From the IMG/VR virus record IMGVR_UViG_3300027905_000011, positions 1 through 38,682 of that record: a stretch of DNA of 38,682 nt; one strand, 5' to 3'. The position numbers were made by a program, and so were the translations under genes. Shown here piece by piece: positions 7 through 28,333 of this stretch (position 1 is the first letter of the stretch; each line of letters begins with the position of its first letter). The DNA comes from a virus. The notes beneath the pieces were generated by a model. The model saw only the letters and a program-made list of their open reading frames with translations, did no database searches and was not told the DNA's origin.

Positions 7-474
7 ATGACAGCGCTTGAATTACTTCATAAGGAGATTAGCCAGCAACGAATTAAACTTTACGAGCTTCCAATGCCACCAAGGATCAAAGGCTTATATA
101 GTGATAATGTAATTTGGCTTAACCGAGGATTACCCACGTATACAGACAAGGTATGTGTTCTTGCTGAGGAGATCGGGCATCACTATACGTCCTATGGCGA
201 TATTCTTAATCAGAAAAAAATATCCCACATCAAACAAGAGAAGCGTGCCAGGAACTGGGCCTACGAAAAATTAATCCCCCTAAAGAGCTTTATTGAAGCT
301 GCAAAAGAGGGAATTACTAATCGGTATGAGTTCGCCGAATTATTAGGAGTGACTGAACATTTTTTAGAACGCGCCATTGAGCATTACAAAGAGAAGTACG
401 GCTTATATGCTGAGTGGACAAGCTATCTAATTTATTTTGAGCCGCTTGGCGTGATCCGTTTGTTTGACGAATAA
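7..474 (+). CDS. ImmA/IrrE-type metallopeptidase of the lysogeny module
   Basis: A 155-residue protein of the ImmA/IrrE family, whose members cleave phage or ICE repressors and so help induce the element. The core motif is LAEEIGHHYTS (about residues 52-62), followed by the family-typical GDIL and a downstream KRARNWAYEKLI segment. The usual HExxH has Glu in place of the first His (EEIGH). From memory this is common in the clostridial phage subfamily, so I do not read it as inactivation. The ATG overlaps a TGA in another frame (ATGA), which fits translational coupling to a repressor gene lying just outside the left edge, but the edge is only six bases away so an upstream start cannot be excluded. 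It is closed by the terminator at 477-515. Confidence 0.85.
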   Translation: MTALELLHKEISQQRIKLYELPMPPRIKGLYSDNVIWLNRGLPTYTDKVCVLAEEIGHHYTSYGDILNQKKISHIKQEKRARNWAYEKLIPLKSFIEAAKEGITNRYEFAELLGVTEHFLERAIEHYKEKYGLYAEWTSYLIYFEPLGVIRLFDE

Positions 475-476
475 AA

Positions 477-515
477 AAAGAACCCCTGGTGTTGGTAGCA
501 CCAAGGATTCTTTTT
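477..515 (+). terminator. Terminator after immA-like gene, possibly bidirectional
   Basis: Arms 477-491 and 499-513 pair over 15 positions with two C-A mismatches around a 7-nt loop. A run of T (511-515) follows on the + strand and a run of A precedes, so it could stop transcription from both sides. It separates the repressor/ImmA transcript from the recombinase gene. Confidence 0.75.
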
Positions 516-615
516 AGATACATTCAGCCTAATAGGCGGTGAAATGCATCTGCGCAGTATAATTATAGCATTTTCGCCGTCTTTAGAACAATAAATTGAA
601 AGGCGGTATTTTATT

Positions 616-2163
616 ATGGAAGCCAAAGTCATTCGCGCTGTAGCCTATGCGAGGTACAGTTCAGATAATCAGAGAGAGGAATCCATTACAGCGCAACTAA
701 GAGCAGTAAAAGAATATTGTCAGCAAAAAGAATATATCCTTACAAACGTCTACACTGACGAAGCCAAGACAGCGACCACCGATAACAGGGCTGGTTTTCA
801 ACAAATGATAGCAGATAGCGGACTAGATTTATTCGATGTTGTCATTGTTCACAAGCTTGATAGGTTTGCGCGTAATAGATATGATTCAGCTTCTTACAAA
901 CGGAAACTTAGAATCAATAAAGTTCGACTCGAAAGTATCCTAGAACGTCTTGACGATTCTCCGGAATCTGTTATTCTGGAATCGATGTTAGAGGGCATAG
1001 CCGAATACTACAGCAAGAACCTTGCCCGAGAGGTCCGCAAGGGTTTGTCCGAAAATGCTAGGGCGGGTATACATAATGGCGGTCGCGCTCCTTATGGACT
1101 AAAGGTCAATCCTATCACCAGGAAGTACGAAATAGATGAGACACAATATAAGGCGGTCCAGATGTATTTTAATGGGGTTGTTGCAGGTGTACCTTTGGCA
1201 GAAATTGCCCGGAGAATCAATGCCGAGGGATTTCGAACCTATACCGGCGATAAATTTAAGATAACCAGTTTTGACACCTGGGCTTATAATCGTAAATACA
1301 AAGGTGATTATGCTTGGGATGTTTCAACCAAAAAAGATGCTGAAGGAAAGCGAAACGGGCACACTAAAAAACCCATTGAAGAACAAACCATAATCCCTGG
1401 CGTAATACCGGCCATTATCGAACCTGAATTATGGGAGAGGGTGAATTCATTGATGAAGAAAAGACAACGCATAGGCGGCAGCATGACGGCCAAAGAGGTT
1501 TATTTGCTTAGCGGCAAGGTTGAGTGTGGTGTTTGCGGATCTAATTACTTTGGCGAACGTTATAACAGCAGAGGAAACCATTATGCCTATTACAAGTGTT
1601 CCGGGAAATGCGGAAATAAAGGAGTCGACAAATACGCGCTTGAAAAATTGATTTCAGAAAAATTGGAAGAGATCTGCTTTAGCGAAGATGGTATGAATAA
1701 AATCGCAGAAGAGGTTAAGCGGCTTTATGCAGAACGCAAAAAGACGGTTAACAGTGAGATTGAGCCTCTTAAGAAAGAAATTAAATCCCTGGAATTGAAA
1801 ATTGATAAGTGGCTGGATATATTGGGCGATGGAACGCCACAAAAACAAGTATACATGCAAAAGATAAGTGAGGCTGACGATCATAAAAAACTCTTAGAAT
1901 TAGAACTTGCCAAAATGAATGTTTTAGCGAATGTCCAATCCGTCGATGAAGCCATTCTAATGAAGGTGCTTAACGCCAAAAAAGACCAGCTCTTCTCCGC
2001 TAATGACGAAGATAGAAAGCAGGTCTTTCAAGAGTATGTTGATAAAGTTATCGTTAACAGTATCCAAGACGATGTGGTTAATATCGAATTAACTGTTAGG
2101 TGCTTCAATGGTGGAGGCGAATTGACTCTTCTGAAGCACCTAACATTTCCGTATCAGAAATAG
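616..2163 (+). CDS. Large serine recombinase (phage integrase)
   Basis: A 515-residue large serine recombinase that would catalyse integration between attP and attB, and excision with a directionality factor. The N-terminal resolvase domain begins AYARYSSDNQ; Ser15, aligned by the YARxS motif, is the likely nucleophile. The HKLDRFARNR motif (about residues 80-90) carries active-site arginines. A recombinase domain follows (about 155-265, GRAPYGLKVN), then a zinc ribbon with CGVCG and a later Cys pair (about 300-335), a Lys/Glu-rich coiled coil and a short tail. The length suits the class. The ATG follows GAAAGGCGG at about 9-10 nt. A TATAAT box lies at 558-563 but no convincing -35 box. The att site is normally beside such genes; I could not identify it. 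Confidence 0.95.
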   Translation: MEAKVIRAVAYARYSSDNQREESITAQLRAVKEYCQQKEYILTNVYTDEAKTATTDNRAGFQQMIADSGLDLFDVVIVHKLDRFARNRYDSASYKRKLRINKVRLESILERLDDSPESVILESMLEGIAEYYSKNLAREVRKGLSENARAGIHNGGRAPYGLKVNPITRKYEIDETQYKAVQMYFNGVVAGVPLAEIARRINAEGFRTYTGDKFKITSFDTWAYNRKYKGDYAWDVSTKKDAEGKRNGHTKKPIEEQTIIPGVIPAIIEPELWERVNSLMKKRQRIGGSMTAKEVYLLSGKVECGVCGSNYFGERYNSRGNHYAYYKCSGKCGNKGVDKYALEKLISEKLEEICFSEDGMNKIAEEVKRLYAERKKTVNSEIEPLKKEIKSLELKIDKWLDILGDGTPQKQVYMQKISEADDHKKLLELELAKMNVLANVQSVDEAILMKVLNAKKDQLFSANDEDRKQVFQEYVDKVIVNSIQDDVVNIELTVRCFNGGGELTLLKHLTFPYQK

Positions 2164-5210: not shown

Positions 5211-6242
5211 TTAGTCCTTTCCCGCGACCTGTAACACAGCTTTCATCGTGCCGAATCTATCAGATCCAGCTAATAGAATTACGCCTTCCGGAGCAGATGC
5301 TCCACCAACCTGGTATTTAGTTGTCGCACTAGCAAGCAGATCCGAAGTGGCATAAACGGCCTGGATGACCGGACAGGCGAAGTTTTGGGCAAGGTCTGCG
5401 GCTATTTGTAGATCTGCGTCTCCATAATATAGTATGAGGTTTTTCAAGATAGGTGTGGGGGCCGGTGCAGGAGTAATGCTATCCGGAAGGCCGACAAAAG
5501 CGTTGTATGCATACTGAGCGTAATAATCATACGGCATCCAGAAGCAGCCGATATCCTCAGCCGGTGCCTTTATGCCCCAGTCTGCTCCGTACTGATTCCT
5601 GACCAGGATTAGCTTCTTGACCGGATCATAGCTGATCGCATTAACGGCATGACCGCCGATCGATTGCTCGTTCGCCTCAGGCATGGACAAGATCCCGGTC
5701 CCGTTATAACTCACATCCTCCCAGCCTGTATTGAAAACCTCGAACCCGAATAAAACGGGATGGCCGTTGGAGAGAGCATCTAGGGTATCGGCAAGTATCG
5801 AACCCTGATCAATGGCAAGCACTTGATTCGAGCTAAGCTTCAGATCGGTTCGCCACCCATCAACAGGGGGCGGAGTTGTCATGTCTGACACGGTGTAAGG
5901 GTCCTTGTCTGCTGGCAGCACACCAAATTGTTCTAGCACAATAACGATATCCTCCATCGAGGCTCCTGCATCCGTGGCGACGGTGCCATCGATCTTGCGT
6001 TCTTCGTAATATTGCGCCTGTTCACTTGGATCGATCCAGTCAAGCCCGGCTTGCTTCCGTAATGCCCCGCGCCACTGTAAGCCCGCAAACGCTGTGCATG
6101 AGCCTTCTTGTCCTTGATCAAGGATAGGTCCATAGAAATTGCCAAGGTTTTGAGGAGTTGCAGAGAGTGCTTTACCGGAGTTTTTGTAGGTATTAAACGT
6201 AGTTGGTGCAGTTGATCTGAGTAATGGATATTTTTTAGTCAC
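5211..6242 (-). CDS. Papain-like (C1) cysteine peptidase with the same C-terminal domain
   Basis: About 343 residues. A complete papain-family site is visible, numbered from the GTG start: Gln43 and Cys49 in DQGQEGSCTAFA, His198 in GGHAVNAIS, Asn216 in RNQYGADWG. A Pro/Ala linker (about 255-265) joins it to a C-terminal domain of about 76 residues, about 60 of them identical to the next gene's tail. It has no signal peptide and no obvious propeptide. It is likely an exolysin or wall/S-layer-directed peptidase acting at lysis; a virion or host-directed role is possible. GTG 6242 has AGAAGG at 9 nt; an in-frame TTG at 6248 is too near that site. Confidence 0.8.
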   Translation of the reverse strand: MTKKYPLLRSTAPTTFNTYKNSGKALSATPQNLGNFYGPILDQGQEGSCTAFAGLQWRGALRKQAGLDWIDPSEQAQYYEERKIDGTVATDAGASMEDIVIVLEQFGVLPADKDPYTVSDMTTPPPVDGWRTDLKLSSNQVLAIDQGSILADTLDALSNGHPVLFGFEVFNTGWEDVSYNGTGILSMPEANEQSIGGHAVNAISYDPVKKLILVRNQYGADWGIKAPAEDIGCFWMPYDYYAQYAYNAFVGLPDSITPAPAPTPILKNLILYYGDADLQIAADLAQNFACPVIQAVYATSDLLASATTKYQVGGASAPEGVILLAGSDRFGTMKAVLQVAGKD

Positions 6243-6283
6243 TGACAATTACCTTCTTTCGTTTTTTATAGAAACGAACAAAT

Positions 6284-22857: not shown

Positions 22858-25800
22858 CTAAGGTACAATTTTAACTGTTCTGGATACTGGGTTAATGATC
22901 ACGCCACTAGAATTTTGTACCTGAGGGGTACAAAGTACGGAATTCTCACGACCCATCCAAACTTTGACGTCCATGATCAATCCGTTGCTGTCGTATTTCG
23001 GGTAAGGCCCTTCCATTTGAAATGGAGTCTCAACCCCGTACCGAGTTGAGCCTTTTTGAGTTAGCAATGTACGGCCATCGCCAGCGGCCCATGGAGCGTT
23101 AATCTTGGCTAAGTTCATGCCGGAACGCTCACCGAAGTAATTACCAGTCGTGATAAGGCGGGTGCCTTCAGGTTGGGCAAGCTTATAGAAGATCTGGGCA
23201 TTCTCGATATAGGTCGCAGCATTACGACTCATGACGCTCAAATTGGGGACCTTAAATCGTGGAGAGCTGCCCATGAGAGCCGCGCTATTGCTGAGTTGTT
23301 GCAAGAAGGTGTTGTACCAGTATTCCGGTGTAGTGGTACTTGGCACAGTGTAATGCCAAACGTCGTAGTTGGTTACGGCACTGTAGGAGCAAATTGGGAA
23401 AATAGTTGTGTCGTTAATTCCGGCTCCCGCCGTAAAGTACATCACGCCATTCTCAAAATCCACCGCAAAAGTGGCAGTAGTCCCGGCGAAGGATGCTACA
23501 TTCCCATTAGAATCTAAGTAACCCAATACTTGAGCAACGCTATTAACGGTACAGGTAAAAGGATTAATAGTGACGACTGTGGAAGAACCGTTGGTTTGTA
23601 ACTGTACCTTTTGGCGCGGTCTTACAATCGGATTGTATTCAGCTGTTGCTGTTTTTGTTGTGGCTACCGTCAATTTTCCGGTATATACGACGTTCGTACT
23701 GTTGGATACTGCCGTAAGTTCTCCGCTCGGAATCGTCTCATTCGTAACAACGTATGGCGCATATTCGTCTGATGCCATTAACATTTCTAAGTATGCCGCA
23801 TCATCGATACGTCGTTTCTTGGCTTCTCCAAGATGGTAAAGAGCACGAGCGATAGAATCATACTTAGCAGGTCCGCTAAGCATCTCTTTCACTACTTGAC
23901 TACTCAAAGATACAGCGACATTTCTCCAAGTTGGTTGAAACGGTAACCAGCTCAGACCGATTGCCGATTCCGCAATACCTACACCTTCTGCCGTCACAAA
24001 ATCCATGAGGCCAGTCGCAGGGTTTGGGGTTTCTGCACCCGTGAAGGTTTCAACCGGGATTCTCCACTCAATTCCGTCGAAGGTATCTGCGTACAGGAAT
24101 TGCAGGGATTCAACGTCTTGGAAAGCTTGTACCAATACCGCGGTTAAGATCGTGGGCTGATTCAAGAGTTGGGCCGTAGTAACCGAAACGCTGTCCTGCA
24201 TCATTTCAAAGCCCTGGATACTGTCGTTATATACTCGCAAGTCACCATCCACCACGGAATCAGCAAGTGCCTTTGGCCCAATCGTTGCTACGTGGCGGTC
24301 CATAATTTTCTCTAGGGTCTTTTTATTGGACTCCCGTAATTTAGGATCAAACTGTTTTCCGAAACGTTCGCCATAGCGGTCAAAAGCCGCTGTTATCTGG
24401 TCTACAATAGGCTTCCAAGGCTTTGGGGATTCGCCGAACTCGACACGAACCTGCCCCTCCGGACCTGCTTGATCGTTAAAGCCCATACCAGTTAAGGCTT
24501 GACTCGCGTTAGCCCCGCTAATCACAGCGATTGTGGCATCAAACAAAACACCAGCCTGTTCTTTCGTGGCTGGTGCAGCCTGCTCGATGGCGTCTGTAAT
24601 TGCCTTGATGGCGTTGTCCGGTAATTTACCTTTCAATTCAGCGACCTTACTATCCATAAATACTTTAGCTTCGGCGCGGGCCTGAGCTTTTGCCTCTTCT
24701 ACTTTTTGAGCTTCTACGGCATCAAGTGCGGGCTTTGCAATAGCTCCAGCTTGAGCGGACATTATCCCCATAAATTCAGGGTCGCTTTTCATTAATTCCA
24801 ACATTTCTTCTCTAGTCAAGTCTTTCGCGCCTCCTTCTGTGGAGTCGGTCATGCCGCTCCCCTTACCCTGCACTTGTTGATTTTTAATGTACTCCTGGGC
24901 CTGCTGGTATCTGTCGTAATCGTTAGCAGTTACCAGGCTTAGACTTGTGTTCGCCGTAGTGGTAACGCTCAATCCGGAATTTTCGAGGAATGGGCCGTGG
25001 CCGTTAGGGCAGATATAGAAGTCAATATCGCCATCCTCATCGGGGTCCTGCATCTCCAGCTCCGCTCCGCATTGCGGACAGTTAGGGGTGACAAAGGAAA
25101 TGCCGTCCTCATATGGGTAGGTATCCAGGATCTCACCAACCTGCGAATCAGTTAAAACCTGCACAGCCTCGCAACCGTTAGTCGCCGGATTCATAACAAT
25201 GTCGAAACTGGATATGTTTATTGCTGTCGTCACGTCAACCATTACGTTATCTATGGGCCTTTTCACTGATTGTCCAAGGAATCGCATACTCGCGCCAACG
25301 GGAACACCCTGCAAGACGAGCGCCTTTAGGTCTTTGCCTTTGACTGTTTCCAGGATTTCGGCATCAAAAAAGACGTCCATGCCATCCATGAAAACGTCTG
25401 AGATTTTGATTACACTATTTTCAATTTTGGTATCGAAAAATATGTTCCCGTCTGGCCCCTTCTTCGCTACTGGATGAGGGCTTTCGCCTATCATTCTGCC
25501 TGGCGCTACGTACTTTTCTTTGGCTACGTTGATTGCATCGCTTAAGACATCAAAGGGATACAGCCGTCTATTAGTATTCACCACATTAGCTTGAGTGCCC
25601 TTGAACCTCACTTTTAGCGGCCCTTCTTGTGCCTGTGTAGCATCGGTAAGGACTTGCACTTGCGCGATAATGGTATCACTCATGACCTTTTTGTCCCATT
25701 TACTCGTATCGATCCCGGCTTTCTTCCCCGCTGCTAAGAGATTCTTTCGTGCCGTTTCTCGTTCGCCGGCCGTTAGTTCCTTGGCTCTACTGACCATATC

Positions 25801-25926
25801 CCAGCCAAGATTAATGTGGTTTTTGTCCAGTTTCCCATCTTGGTACATCGGGAACATTTTCTTTCCTGGCAAAGCGAATTGATTGTTTGGCATTTTCTTC
25901 CGCTCTGCTGCTGATATTTTAGCCAT
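22858..25926 (-). CDS. Fused prohead protease, zinc ribbon, scaffold and major capsid protein
   Basis: 1022 residues in one frame. About 1-80 is a small basic helical domain like DUF6582 (MAKISAAERKKMPNNQFALP, HINLGWDMVSRA). About 100-260 is a prohead serine protease: GESPHP with His151, VPVGASMRF with Ser213, and FDIVMNPATNG (Asp242), the order seen in T4 gp21/HK97 gp4-type proteases. A zinc ribbon follows: CPQC (283/286) and CPNGH (306/310). About 365-520 is helical and rich in Ala, Glu and Lys (scaffold). About 530-1022 is the capsid: DVESLQFLYADTFDGIEWRIPVE and WMGRENSVLC. Protease and capsid are usually separate genes. An internal start at 24852 may give scaffold-capsid alone. Confidence 0.85.
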   Translation of the reverse strand: MAKISAAERKKMPNNQFALPGKKMFPMYQDGKLDKNHINLGWDMVSRAKELTAGERETARKNLLAAGKKAGIDTSKWDKKVMSDTIIAQVQVLTDATQAQEGPLKVRFKGTQANVVNTNRRLYPFDVLSDAINVAKEKYVAPGRMIGESPHPVAKKGPDGNIFFDTKIENSVIKISDVFMDGMDVFFDAEILETVKGKDLKALVLQGVPVGASMRFLGQSVKRPIDNVMVDVTTAINISSFDIVMNPATNGCEAVQVLTDSQVGEILDTYPYEDGISFVTPNCPQCGAELEMQDPDEDGDIDFYICPNGHGPFLENSGLSVTTTANTSLSLVTANDYDRYQQAQEYIKNQQVQGKGSGMTDSTEGGAKDLTREEMLELMKSDPEFMGIMSAQAGAIAKPALDAVEAQKVEEAKAQARAEAKVFMDSKVAELKGKLPDNAIKAITDAIEQAAPATKEQAGVLFDATIAVISGANASQALTGMGFNDQAGPEGQVRVEFGESPKPWKPIVDQITAAFDRYGERFGKQFDPKLRESNKKTLEKIMDRHVATIGPKALADSVVDGDLRVYNDSIQGFEMMQDSVSVTTAQLLNQPTILTAVLVQAFQDVESLQFLYADTFDGIEWRIPVETFTGAETPNPATGLMDFVTAEGVGIAESAIGLSWLPFQPTWRNVAVSLSSQVVKEMLSGPAKYDSIARALYHLGEAKKRRIDDAAYLEMLMASDEYAPYVVTNETIPSGELTAVSNSTNVVYTGKLTVATTKTATAEYNPIVRPRQKVQLQTNGSSTVVTINPFTCTVNSVAQVLGYLDSNGNVASFAGTTATFAVDFENGVMYFTAGAGINDTTIFPICSYSAVTNYDVWHYTVPSTTTPEYWYNTFLQQLSNSAALMGSSPRFKVPNLSVMSRNAATYIENAQIFYKLAQPEGTRLITTGNYFGERSGMNLAKINAPWAAGDGRTLLTQKGSTRYGVETPFQMEGPYPKYDSNGLIMDVKVWMGRENSVLCTPQVQNSSGVIINPVSRTVKIVP
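24850..24866 (-). promoter_or_regulatory. Candidate internal ribosome site and start inside the capsid fusion gene
   Basis: Met359 (ATG, plus 24850-24852) is preceded by AAGGGGAGCGGC, an acceptable Shine-Dalgarno sequence at 5-6 nt. It lies exactly between the zinc ribbon and the scaffold region (MTDSTEGGAKDLTREEMLEL). The product would be 664 residues. Lambda Nu3 within C is a known parallel. Confidence 0.5.
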
Positions 25927-25947
25927 TGGTTCACTCCTCTCTTTAAC

Positions 25948-28236
25948 TTAGTCGGCACTTACCCAAGTCCCGCGGCAAAGTGGATGAGCCGGTAAAACGT
26001 CATCGGCATCCGCTAATGAATAAACCTCACCATCGTGACTTGCGCATTCCTCGCACGTTCGATTATCCATTACCTCCAGCCGTTGAACCCTATTAACTCC
26101 GACTTCCTGATAAGTCCCTATCAACCCTTTGTTATACGCGAAGGACAATTCTGTTCGAGCGATCATCTCAGCCCTTCCCGCGGGAAAACTACAGTCCAGT
26201 ACACTTTCGATCCTAGATTCCCACTCCTGGACATTCTCATTGTTAGTATAGGCCTGGTTCAGTTGGCTTCTGAGCAAGTCCCTGGTTGTCTGTTCTATAC
26301 CCTTCACGCGAGTTGCCGCCTGATCTTGGAAGTAGTGCTGGACGCTTGGATTAATAAAGTCGGTTGTTACCCTTACCCCTGTATCCTTCGCCGCATTTGT
26401 CCTGGCATAAGCAGAAGCTTTTTGGTAATTATCCAAGAATACGTTACTAAGATTTTCTTCGCTGTCTACCCACGCAGCGTCAAAGGCGACGAGAAAGTGT
26501 TCTAGTGCCCCCTTTGGCGGCTCCTTTGGTTTGATAGCATCCCCGTAAGCTCCTCGCAGGCTTTCGACCTTCTCGAAGAGCTCAGCTATACTCGGTTTCA
26601 TTGCCTCGTGCACGGACCGAAACGAACTCCGTACTTCATAGGCAAACTGCTTTTCCCACTTTGCTACCTTATCGCTGCGTAATGGAAAGTCTACTTTTTT
26701 TTTACCCTCTACGGCATCTGTTGTGGGCTTACCAGCTGACGTAGTTACAGCATGACTTATCGGTCCGGTAGGAGGTACCTCAGGATTAACCGCGGCGGCT
26801 AGTGTTGCTTGTTCTGCTCTGTCCTCTGCTAACTCAACCTTGACCGCTTCGAGTTCTGCCTCTATAGCGTCATCACCCTCTAGGCCTATGTCCTTACTAA
26901 CAATCGTAAGGGCAGTCTTCCTGGTAATGAGTGGATCAGGCTGCGCAGAACGAAGTTTAATCACTCTGTCAACTCTGTCGTTGGCAGTCTCGTTGTCGTT
27001 TTCGAACCAACGGAAATTGTACTCTACAAGGCTAGCGTCGATACCCGCCAAAGCTAAGGCAAAGTCAAAGATAAAACGAAGTCCGGAATAAGGTGAACTG
27101 TCGCCGTATTCAAGAAGGTTTCTTAGTTCCTGTACGTCCTCCTGGAACTGTTCCATCTGAGCATCTACAATATCCCGGTTTACGTTTTGCCCCCAGCCCA
27201 TAATGTGTAGAGGAACAGCACTTCCAGCCATGTAGACTTCTTGCAGATGGATTACATCGTCGATCTCATCTAGGTTAGCGTCAGAAGACAGGTCCGTGAT
27301 ACTCACTTGACCATTGCCGTAGTAATCGGTAGCTATTTGCGCTTTCTTTGGGTCAAGTTTGTTTTTAGTCTTGTAGTCTAACACTTGCGTCCACTCACCG
27401 GGATTTTCCTTGGTGCCGATGTTGTGCAGCCGCCTGGCCGGTGCCCGAGTTCGCCGCCTTACCACTAGGTCCTGCTCCGTCATGTTAAGCTTTTTCCAGT
27501 AACCTCTACAGGCTAGGTATTGACTGTTACCATAGCGGTTACCGTCCTCGTGATCCCAGCGGATGTGATTGACGGACCATAACGGAAACTCCGAAAGGAT
27601 TTGTAATGAGATCGGGTCAATTTGCCTAAAGGCCTTTGCAGTATCCGGAAAATTACCAGTCATATCATCGTTTCGCTGTATAGATATAGCTGGTAGGCTT
27701 TTAATGTTTACGAGTTTCTTGTTCTTTAGGTCCACTACGGGATTAAGAAACAAGTCACCTGCTTTGAGTAATACACGAGCCCAGGGGTGAAGCTTTGCGT
27801 TGATCTGACAATCCCGCATAACCTGATTGATTACATCCTGCGCTTTCTGTGCTAGGGCCTCACTGGCCTTTGAGCTGGTGGTAACCGTAATACCTCGCCT
27901 TACTGCCGTACTGGCGAAGATATGATTAGCCCGCTTAAGACGCGTATCCTCTTTGATCATCATGTCTATTTCTCGTAGGACAGTACGCCTATCCCATTCC
28001 ATTCGGAACATTTCATATTCCCAAATGGTTGGGGATGTTTTAGTGATTAGCGCCTGATCTTCATCCCGCGATATTCCGCCTAAGTTCGGCAGCTCTTTTT
28101 GGAACGTGGTTGTAACGCCTCTGATTCGATTAAATATATCCTTGACGCGTCCTATTCCTGTTGGTCTTTTGCTTGGTGGTATTCCGTAAGCCATGCCAAC
28201 GCCGGGGCTGCTGTATGGGTAACCGTTGTTGTCGAT
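25948..28236 (-). CDS. Portal protein fused to a minor-head (Mu gpF/SPP1 gp7-like) domain
   Basis: About 762 residues. The portal part (about 1-470) includes WEYEMFRMEWDRRTVLREIDMM, a KHPWARVLLKAGDLF-type stretch and VYMAGSAVPLHIMGWG with a long clip/stem region. A Pro/Ala linker follows, then a C-terminal minor-head domain: RAEMIARTELSFAYNKGLIG, TCEEC, SHDGEVY and PLCRGTW, the Mu gpF signature. Start choice: a perfect AAAAGGAGG (28245-28253) is 8 nt from an in-frame ATC at 28236, the spacing used by its neighbours; the in-frame GTG at 28245 overlaps that site; GTG 28293 has no good site. Termini other than the ATC are therefore possible. Confidence 0.85.
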   Translation of the reverse strand: MDNNGYPYSSPGVGMAYGIPPSKRPTGIGRVKDIFNRIRGVTTTFQKELPNLGGISRDEDQALITKTSPTIWEYEMFRMEWDRRTVLREIDMMIKEDTRLKRANHIFASTAVRRGITVTTSSKASEALAQKAQDVINQVMRDCQINAKLHPWARVLLKAGDLFLNPVVDLKNKKLVNIKSLPAISIQRNDDMTGNFPDTAKAFRQIDPISLQILSEFPLWSVNHIRWDHEDGNRYGNSQYLACRGYWKKLNMTEQDLVVRRRTRAPARRLHNIGTKENPGEWTQVLDYKTKNKLDPKKAQIATDYYGNGQVSITDLSSDANLDEIDDVIHLQEVYMAGSAVPLHIMGWGQNVNRDIVDAQMEQFQEDVQELRNLLEYGDSSPYSGLRFIFDFALALAGIDASLVEYNFRWFENDNETANDRVDRVIKLRSAQPDPLITRKTALTIVSKDIGLEGDDAIEAELEAVKVELAEDRAEQATLAAAVNPEVPPTGPISHAVTTSAGKPTTDAVEGKKKVDFPLRSDKVAKWEKQFAYEVRSSFRSVHEAMKPSIAELFEKVESLRGAYGDAIKPKEPPKGALEHFLVAFDAAWVDSEENLSNVFLDNYQKASAYARTNAAKDTGVRVTTDFINPSVQHYFQDQAATRVKGIEQTTRDLLRSQLNQAYTNNENVQEWESRIESVLDCSFPAGRAEMIARTELSFAYNKGLIGTYQEVGVNRVQRLEVMDNRTCEECASHDGEVYSLADADDVLPAHPLCRGTWVSAD

Positions 28237-28244
28237 GTAGTTCA

Positions 28245-28250
28245 CCTCCT
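28245..28250 (-). promoter_or_regulatory. Shine-Dalgarno site of the portal gene, followed by ATC
   Basis: AGGAGG on the - strand (28250 to 28245), within AAAAGGAGGTGA. At 8 nt the in-frame codon is ATC (28236-28234); no ATG, GTG or TTG lies 4-12 nt away in frame. Confidence 0.6.
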
Positions 28251-28333
28251 TTTGGGGGGTTTTAGGTAATAAAAAAAGAGCGACCACGAACACGGTTAAT
28301 TTCCGCGTAGGCGATACCCATTGAGGATAGGTC

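Follow-up and report, generated by a model that had tools for sequence, protein, structure and literature searches.

A 38,682-base viral contig, which makes up the whole of its record and is called the window below, carries a single gene in which a predicted prohead protease, a scaffold and a predicted HK97-fold major capsid protein follow one another in one reading frame. Our results favor the interpretation that this capsid gene yields two products nested in one frame, whose ratio would be set by a second start inside the gene, where protease and scaffold meet, and from the comparison of its homologues we give this interpretation a probability of about 0.8. Protease-scaffold-capsid fusions as such have already been published; the present one combines an S77 protease with a conserved nested start.

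Results

The fused gene and its setting

The reading frame runs from 25926 to 22858 on the minus strand and encodes 1022 residues without interruption. It starts with an ATG behind the Shine-Dalgarno (SD) sequence AGGAG (25934..25938, minus strand; duplex -8.5 kcal/mol), it matches PHROG_22848 (E 4e-111), a family annotated as being of “unknown function”, and its full-length protease-scaffold-capsid product is predicted to be the minor one. The initial annotation had described a single frame of this length with the order DUF6582-like domain, protease, zinc ribbon, scaffold and capsid; the frame is indeed intact, and the order was borne out. The gene is flanked by a portal-MuF gene and by head-tail connector genes (SU10 adaptor and others), and the window holds the gene set of a contractile-tailed phage (Terminase_6, Portal_T4/Mu F, sheath, tape measure, Baseplate_J). 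A serine recombinase gene suggests that this phage is temperate.

Two neighboring features may be recorded in passing. The portal and the Mu F-like head protein of the window are likewise fused, in one ORF of 781 residues (25948-28293, minus strand); for the matching gene of Brevibacillus phage Emery, gp5, the annotation joins two pieces into one CDS, which overlaps gp4, and in the homologue locus L001 the portal and Mu F parts occupy an ORF each (54..1004 and 1046..1729). A papain-family cysteine peptidase (5211-6248, minus strand; PF00112, E 1.8e-4) is encoded at the distal end of the block of tail genes.

The protease

Three lines of evidence support that residues about 80-260 (25147..25689, minus strand) are a T4 gp21-type S77 prohead protease, as predicted from sequence and modelled structure. 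First, residues 111-223 match Pfam Peptidase_S77 above the curated cut-off (E 2.7e-9; 37.2 bits versus 27). Secondly, the family profile matched T4 gp21 in the PDB (5jbl, E 2e-9). Thirdly, Foldseek aligned the AlphaFold model of residues 1-369 with the same structure (E 9e-11, TM 0.77 by target). The triad already named in the initial annotation, His151 (25474-25476), Ser213 (25288-25290) and Asp242 (25201-25203, all on the minus strand), is invariant across all aligned family members.

Scaffold, capsid and the border between them

Structure prediction of the separate parts, which had been suggested as a check, recovered a T4 gp21 fold, a helical scaffold and an HK97-fold capsid; the alignment used for the models excluded four rows from annotated records. 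Residues 371-1022 were modelled as a long helix and further helices followed by a mixed domain. The delta-domain-like scaffold extends from residue 370 to probably near residue 575 (24202..24819, minus strand), is mostly helical in the AlphaFold model and would presumably be removed. The remaining residues, about 576-1022 (22861..24201, minus strand), are predicted from alignment and from Foldseek comparison with the PDB to be the major capsid protein. The C-terminal part gave 42 matches at E<=0.001, those listed all being capsid proteins, and its TM scores to HK97-fold structures were modest (0.25-0.49 by target). The capsid part matched no Pfam or NCBIfam capsid model and, in a sequence search, no PDB entry. 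Because no curated capsid family matches by sequence, the assignment as an HK97-fold major capsid protein rests on the predicted fold together with the position of the gene.

No E-type cleavage site is conserved near residues 490-503 or 560-582, and we claim no cleavage site, since the border between scaffold and capsid shows no motif conserved well enough to define one. The N-terminus of the mature capsid protein probably lies near residues 555-582, as judged from the family alignment, in which a conserved DSVSVTTAQ... follows, and by analogy with T4 gp23. The position first proposed for it, residues 520-540, is probably too early on both counts.

Accessory domains

Two segments of the window protein appear to be clade-specific additions outside the core machine. 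The DUF6582-like N-terminal domain (residues 10-75; 25702..25899, minus strand) had been named from the window, where its match to PF20223 is weak (E 0.023, 15.4 bits versus a cut-off of 27.3); the homologous domains of L055, L056 and L060 pass this threshold (E 3e-9 to 8e-11), and a DUF6582-like start is missing in L001, L015, L017 and L051-L053. The zinc ribbon of the initial annotation stands as a zinc-ribbon-like knuckle (residues 281-316; 24979..25086, minus strand), modelled at pLDDT about 80-87, but its set of ligands is incomplete. The window has three cysteines only (C283-x2-C286 ... C306), with CPNGHG at the fourth position and His310 as a possible ligand, so that four metal ligands in two knuckles are not found there, and all Pfam zinc-ribbon matches in the window are below cut-off. 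The knuckle segment is present in the window's own clade (L001, L014-L017, L051-L053, L055 and L056), with the full CxxC/CxxC in L001, L051-L053 and L055-L056; L014 has lost one cysteine, and L060 keeps the segment with zero cysteines. We regard both domains as accessory because the Emery-like clade, which is half of the family, has neither of them, and because metal ligands have been lost in some members.

Conservation of the fusion

Every full-length homologue, 25 in a first set and nine more distinct ones found later, is one ORF with protease, scaffold and capsid. The homologues come from Brevibacillus phage Emery (gp6), three Brevibacillus/Aneurinibacillus plasmids and many viral contigs, with further ones in Brevibacillus, Paenibacillus and Clostridia genomes. 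No split protease/capsid homologue came up among the phages, plasmids, genome contigs and viral contigs searched. An unusual architecture is the only point in favor of two genes having been joined by a sequencing or assembly error, which the initial annotation had named as something that would refute its reading and to which we assign a negligible probability; we reject this explanation since the same fusion recurs in a phage isolate, on three plasmids, in bacterial genomes and in numerous independent viral contigs. Judged from these sequences, the fusion is conserved.

Some of the records merit separate mention. In the Clostridia bacterium assembly A99_91_CP_DSS the fused gene occurs three times, in diverged forms and each time on another contig (L009, L011 and L012). 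The plasmid copies (L036, L037 and L038) lie on Brevibacillus and Aneurinibacillus “plasmids” of 60-69 kb that also carry phage head and tail genes, and these are therefore probably phage-plasmids. In Microcystis phage yong1 (L003, 5107-7653) a related capsid (26% identity) is fused to a protease of the Pfam Mu-like_Pro family, which suggests that the protease half was exchanged or that the fusion arose twice.

A predicted internal start before the scaffold

Every in-frame ATG, GTG and TTG was scored by the pairing of its upstream bases with an assumed 16S anti-SD sequence. Each of the 25 full-length members in the first set has, at the protease/scaffold junction, an in-frame internal start behind an SD sequence, which is mostly AAGGAGG (in Emery the site reads CCAAGGAGGATGATAAA-ATG). 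Among the 15 members below 70% identity, the strongest internal SD-start sits at the junction in 12, against a mean of 3.4 and a maximum of 9 in 3000 rounds in which synonymous codons were shuffled within the gene and the protein was kept (P about 3e-4); when the window is left out, 11 were observed and 2.7 expected. Nine distinct loci were fetched after the idea had been formed, and in eight of them the junction site is again the strongest (null mean 3.5, P 0.002), while in the ninth the N-terminal start of the gene scores equally high. These figures should be interpreted with some caution, since the junction start of each homologue was picked after the list of SD sites had been seen, a bias that the later loci lessen and do not remove. 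The junction site of L015-L017, L007 and L021 is present and ranks only third or fourth. In the family of the virus Rctr41k (about 19% identity), AAGGAG followed by ATG or GTG is found at the junction in 5/5 members. Synonymous-site conservation upstream of the internal start is raised in many pairs, which we take as no more than supportive given the few codons and the non-independent pairs.

The SD sequence is written in different codon registers (AAG-GAG-G, xAA-GGA-GGx and GAG-GAG-G) and is therefore kept as nucleotide sequence, and the start column varies between Met, Val (GTG) and Leu (TTG) across members. A predicted internal start with its SD sequence is thus conserved in frame at the junction across the family, an arrangement of the lambda C/Nu3 type. 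Equal amounts of protease and shell protein had been expected from the fusion unless the product were processed or the gene internally started; the sequences favor internal starting (12/15, and 8/9 of the later loci).

Were the gene a true polyprotein, translated into full-length chains only from which the protease excises itself during assembly, there would be one protease per shell subunit, which to our knowledge is unusual among known phages. We consider this unlikely: the open frame with its own good SD at residue 1 fits it, as does the description of gp5 of Pseudomonas phage MD8 as a single propeptide (PMC9855967), but it leaves unexplained why the best internal SD-start of most members, those of the later loci included, falls at the junction and in different registers. 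The site could also be an unused relic of two once-separate genes that were fused by loss of a stop codon. Its position is exactly that of the expected gene border, and PMC8508860 gives protease and capsid as separate genes in HK97, lambda and Mu; a relic would decay, however, and the signal persists among members 26-30% identical and in different registers. As no split relative was found either, we hold a relic to be highly improbable.

In the window itself, the SD sequence AAGGAGG (24830..24836, minus strand; SD -11.0) at the junction is the strongest in-frame internal site of the gene. A 10-base spacer separates it from the predicted start TTG at residue 370 (24817..24819, minus strand), which is aligned with the ATG, GTG or TTG of the homologues (L055 uses TTG too) and would give a scaffold-capsid precursor of 653 aa. 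The second strongest internal site, TAAGGGG (24859..24865, minus strand; SD -7.0), precedes an alternative candidate start, ATG at residue 359 (24850..24852, minus strand), with a product of 664 aa. Taken alone, the signal of the window is not significant (synonymous-shuffle p 0.20; null hit fraction 0.72), because the residues Glu-Gly-Gly force an AAGGAGG-like sequence, and the claim of an internal start in the window therefore rests on its homologues.

Discussion

According to our interpretation of a nested two-product gene, initiation at residue 1 would produce the full-length protease-scaffold-capsid chain in minor amounts, and initiation at TTG370 or ATG359 would produce, as the main product, a scaffold-capsid precursor of 653-664 residues. 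The full-length chain could co-assemble with the precursor via its own scaffold and capsid part, and the protease would in this way enter the prohead without a separate targeting signal. Once there, the S77 protease would remove the scaffold from all subunits and cut itself off the shell; the mature capsid protein would then have roughly 440-460 residues. The use of the start, the product ratio and this course of assembly, cleavage and maturation are inferred.

Such a gene would offer a way for a phage that encodes protease and shell protein together to avoid one protease per shell subunit, and the two-start interpretation predicts a protease that delivers itself. We consider the odds about even that this extends to the fusions of unrelated phage lineages (S77 here and in Rctr41k, ClpP in MD8, and the Arthrobacter AM/AU phages), which would then be nested two-start genes in general. 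In that case the fused capsid domain would bring a small number of proteases into the prohead, and two ribosome sites, instead of separate genes, would determine the ratio. Our results also assign functions to PHROG_22848, so far annotated as unknown. Moreover, we suggest that fused capsid genes be annotated as two nested genes, which bears on virion proteomics and on capsid-based classification.

Among known systems, the closest is Emery gp6 (PHROG_22848), homologous to the window protein over residues 111-1020 at about 32% identity. It resembles the window gene in that a single ORF encodes the S77 protease, the scaffold and the HK97-fold capsid, and in having an AAGGAGG-start within the gene at the junction. 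The Emery-like clade differs from the window by the absence of both the zinc-ribbon-like knuckle and the DUF6582-like domain, and its N-terminal extension is a different one. The “putative phage capsid protein and protease” of Rctr41k (KX853513) likewise has its S77 protease, its scaffold and its capsid within a single ORF, but is only about 19% identical overall, and no zinc knuckle was seen in it. Within the capsid part of this ORF (L004, 4671-7286), the NCBIfam model NF052337 for phage tail tubes matches residues 561-638 (E 2.8e-17), which may point to an inserted domain that capsid and tail tube proteins have in common.

In lambda C/Nu3, an internal start precedes the scaffold, which lets the protease enter on a scaffold domain; this nested in-frame scaffold start in a protease-scaffold gene was reportedly described by Shaw and Murialdo in 1980 (cited in PMC8508860). 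The window gene, with its predicted internal start before the scaffold, has the same layout of protease and scaffold in one frame. Lambda, however, encodes its capsid in a gene apart and uses a protease of another family, whereas the nested product of the window would include the shell protein. HK97 resembles the window insofar that its scaffold (delta domain) is the N-terminal part of the gp5 capsid protein and is removed by proteolysis; it differs in having a separate gene, gp4, for a protease of a different family. A ClpP-capsid fusion is also reported for Gifsy-2. In PMC8508860, lambda C/Nu3 serves as the model of nested protease/scaffold starts and HK97 as the example of a scaffold fused to the capsid.

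The initial annotation rightly remarked that fusions of protease and capsid have precedents (PMC8508860, PMC5513430). Published internal initiation in such fusions was not found in the open-access papers searched, and no discussion of an internal start in MD8 gp5 was found in the accessible text of PMC8508860. According to the same text, gp5 of Pseudomonas phage MD8 holds protease, scaffold and capsid in one gene. It is a triple fusion like the window gene and has a weak SD-start at residue 220, close to the junction, but its protease is of the ClpP type and its sequence is unrelated. Further protease-capsid fusions are Circum gp12, CapnMurica gp13 and Maggie gp7 of Arthrobacter phages and orf7 of Rhodococcus phage RRH1 (PMC5513430), which are smaller than the window gene and have different protease and capsid sequences. 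The junction SD is weak in RRH1 and Maggie; Circum and CapnMurica, like the window, have a strong SD-start at the junction, and it is homologous between the two phages (MPDLxHA).
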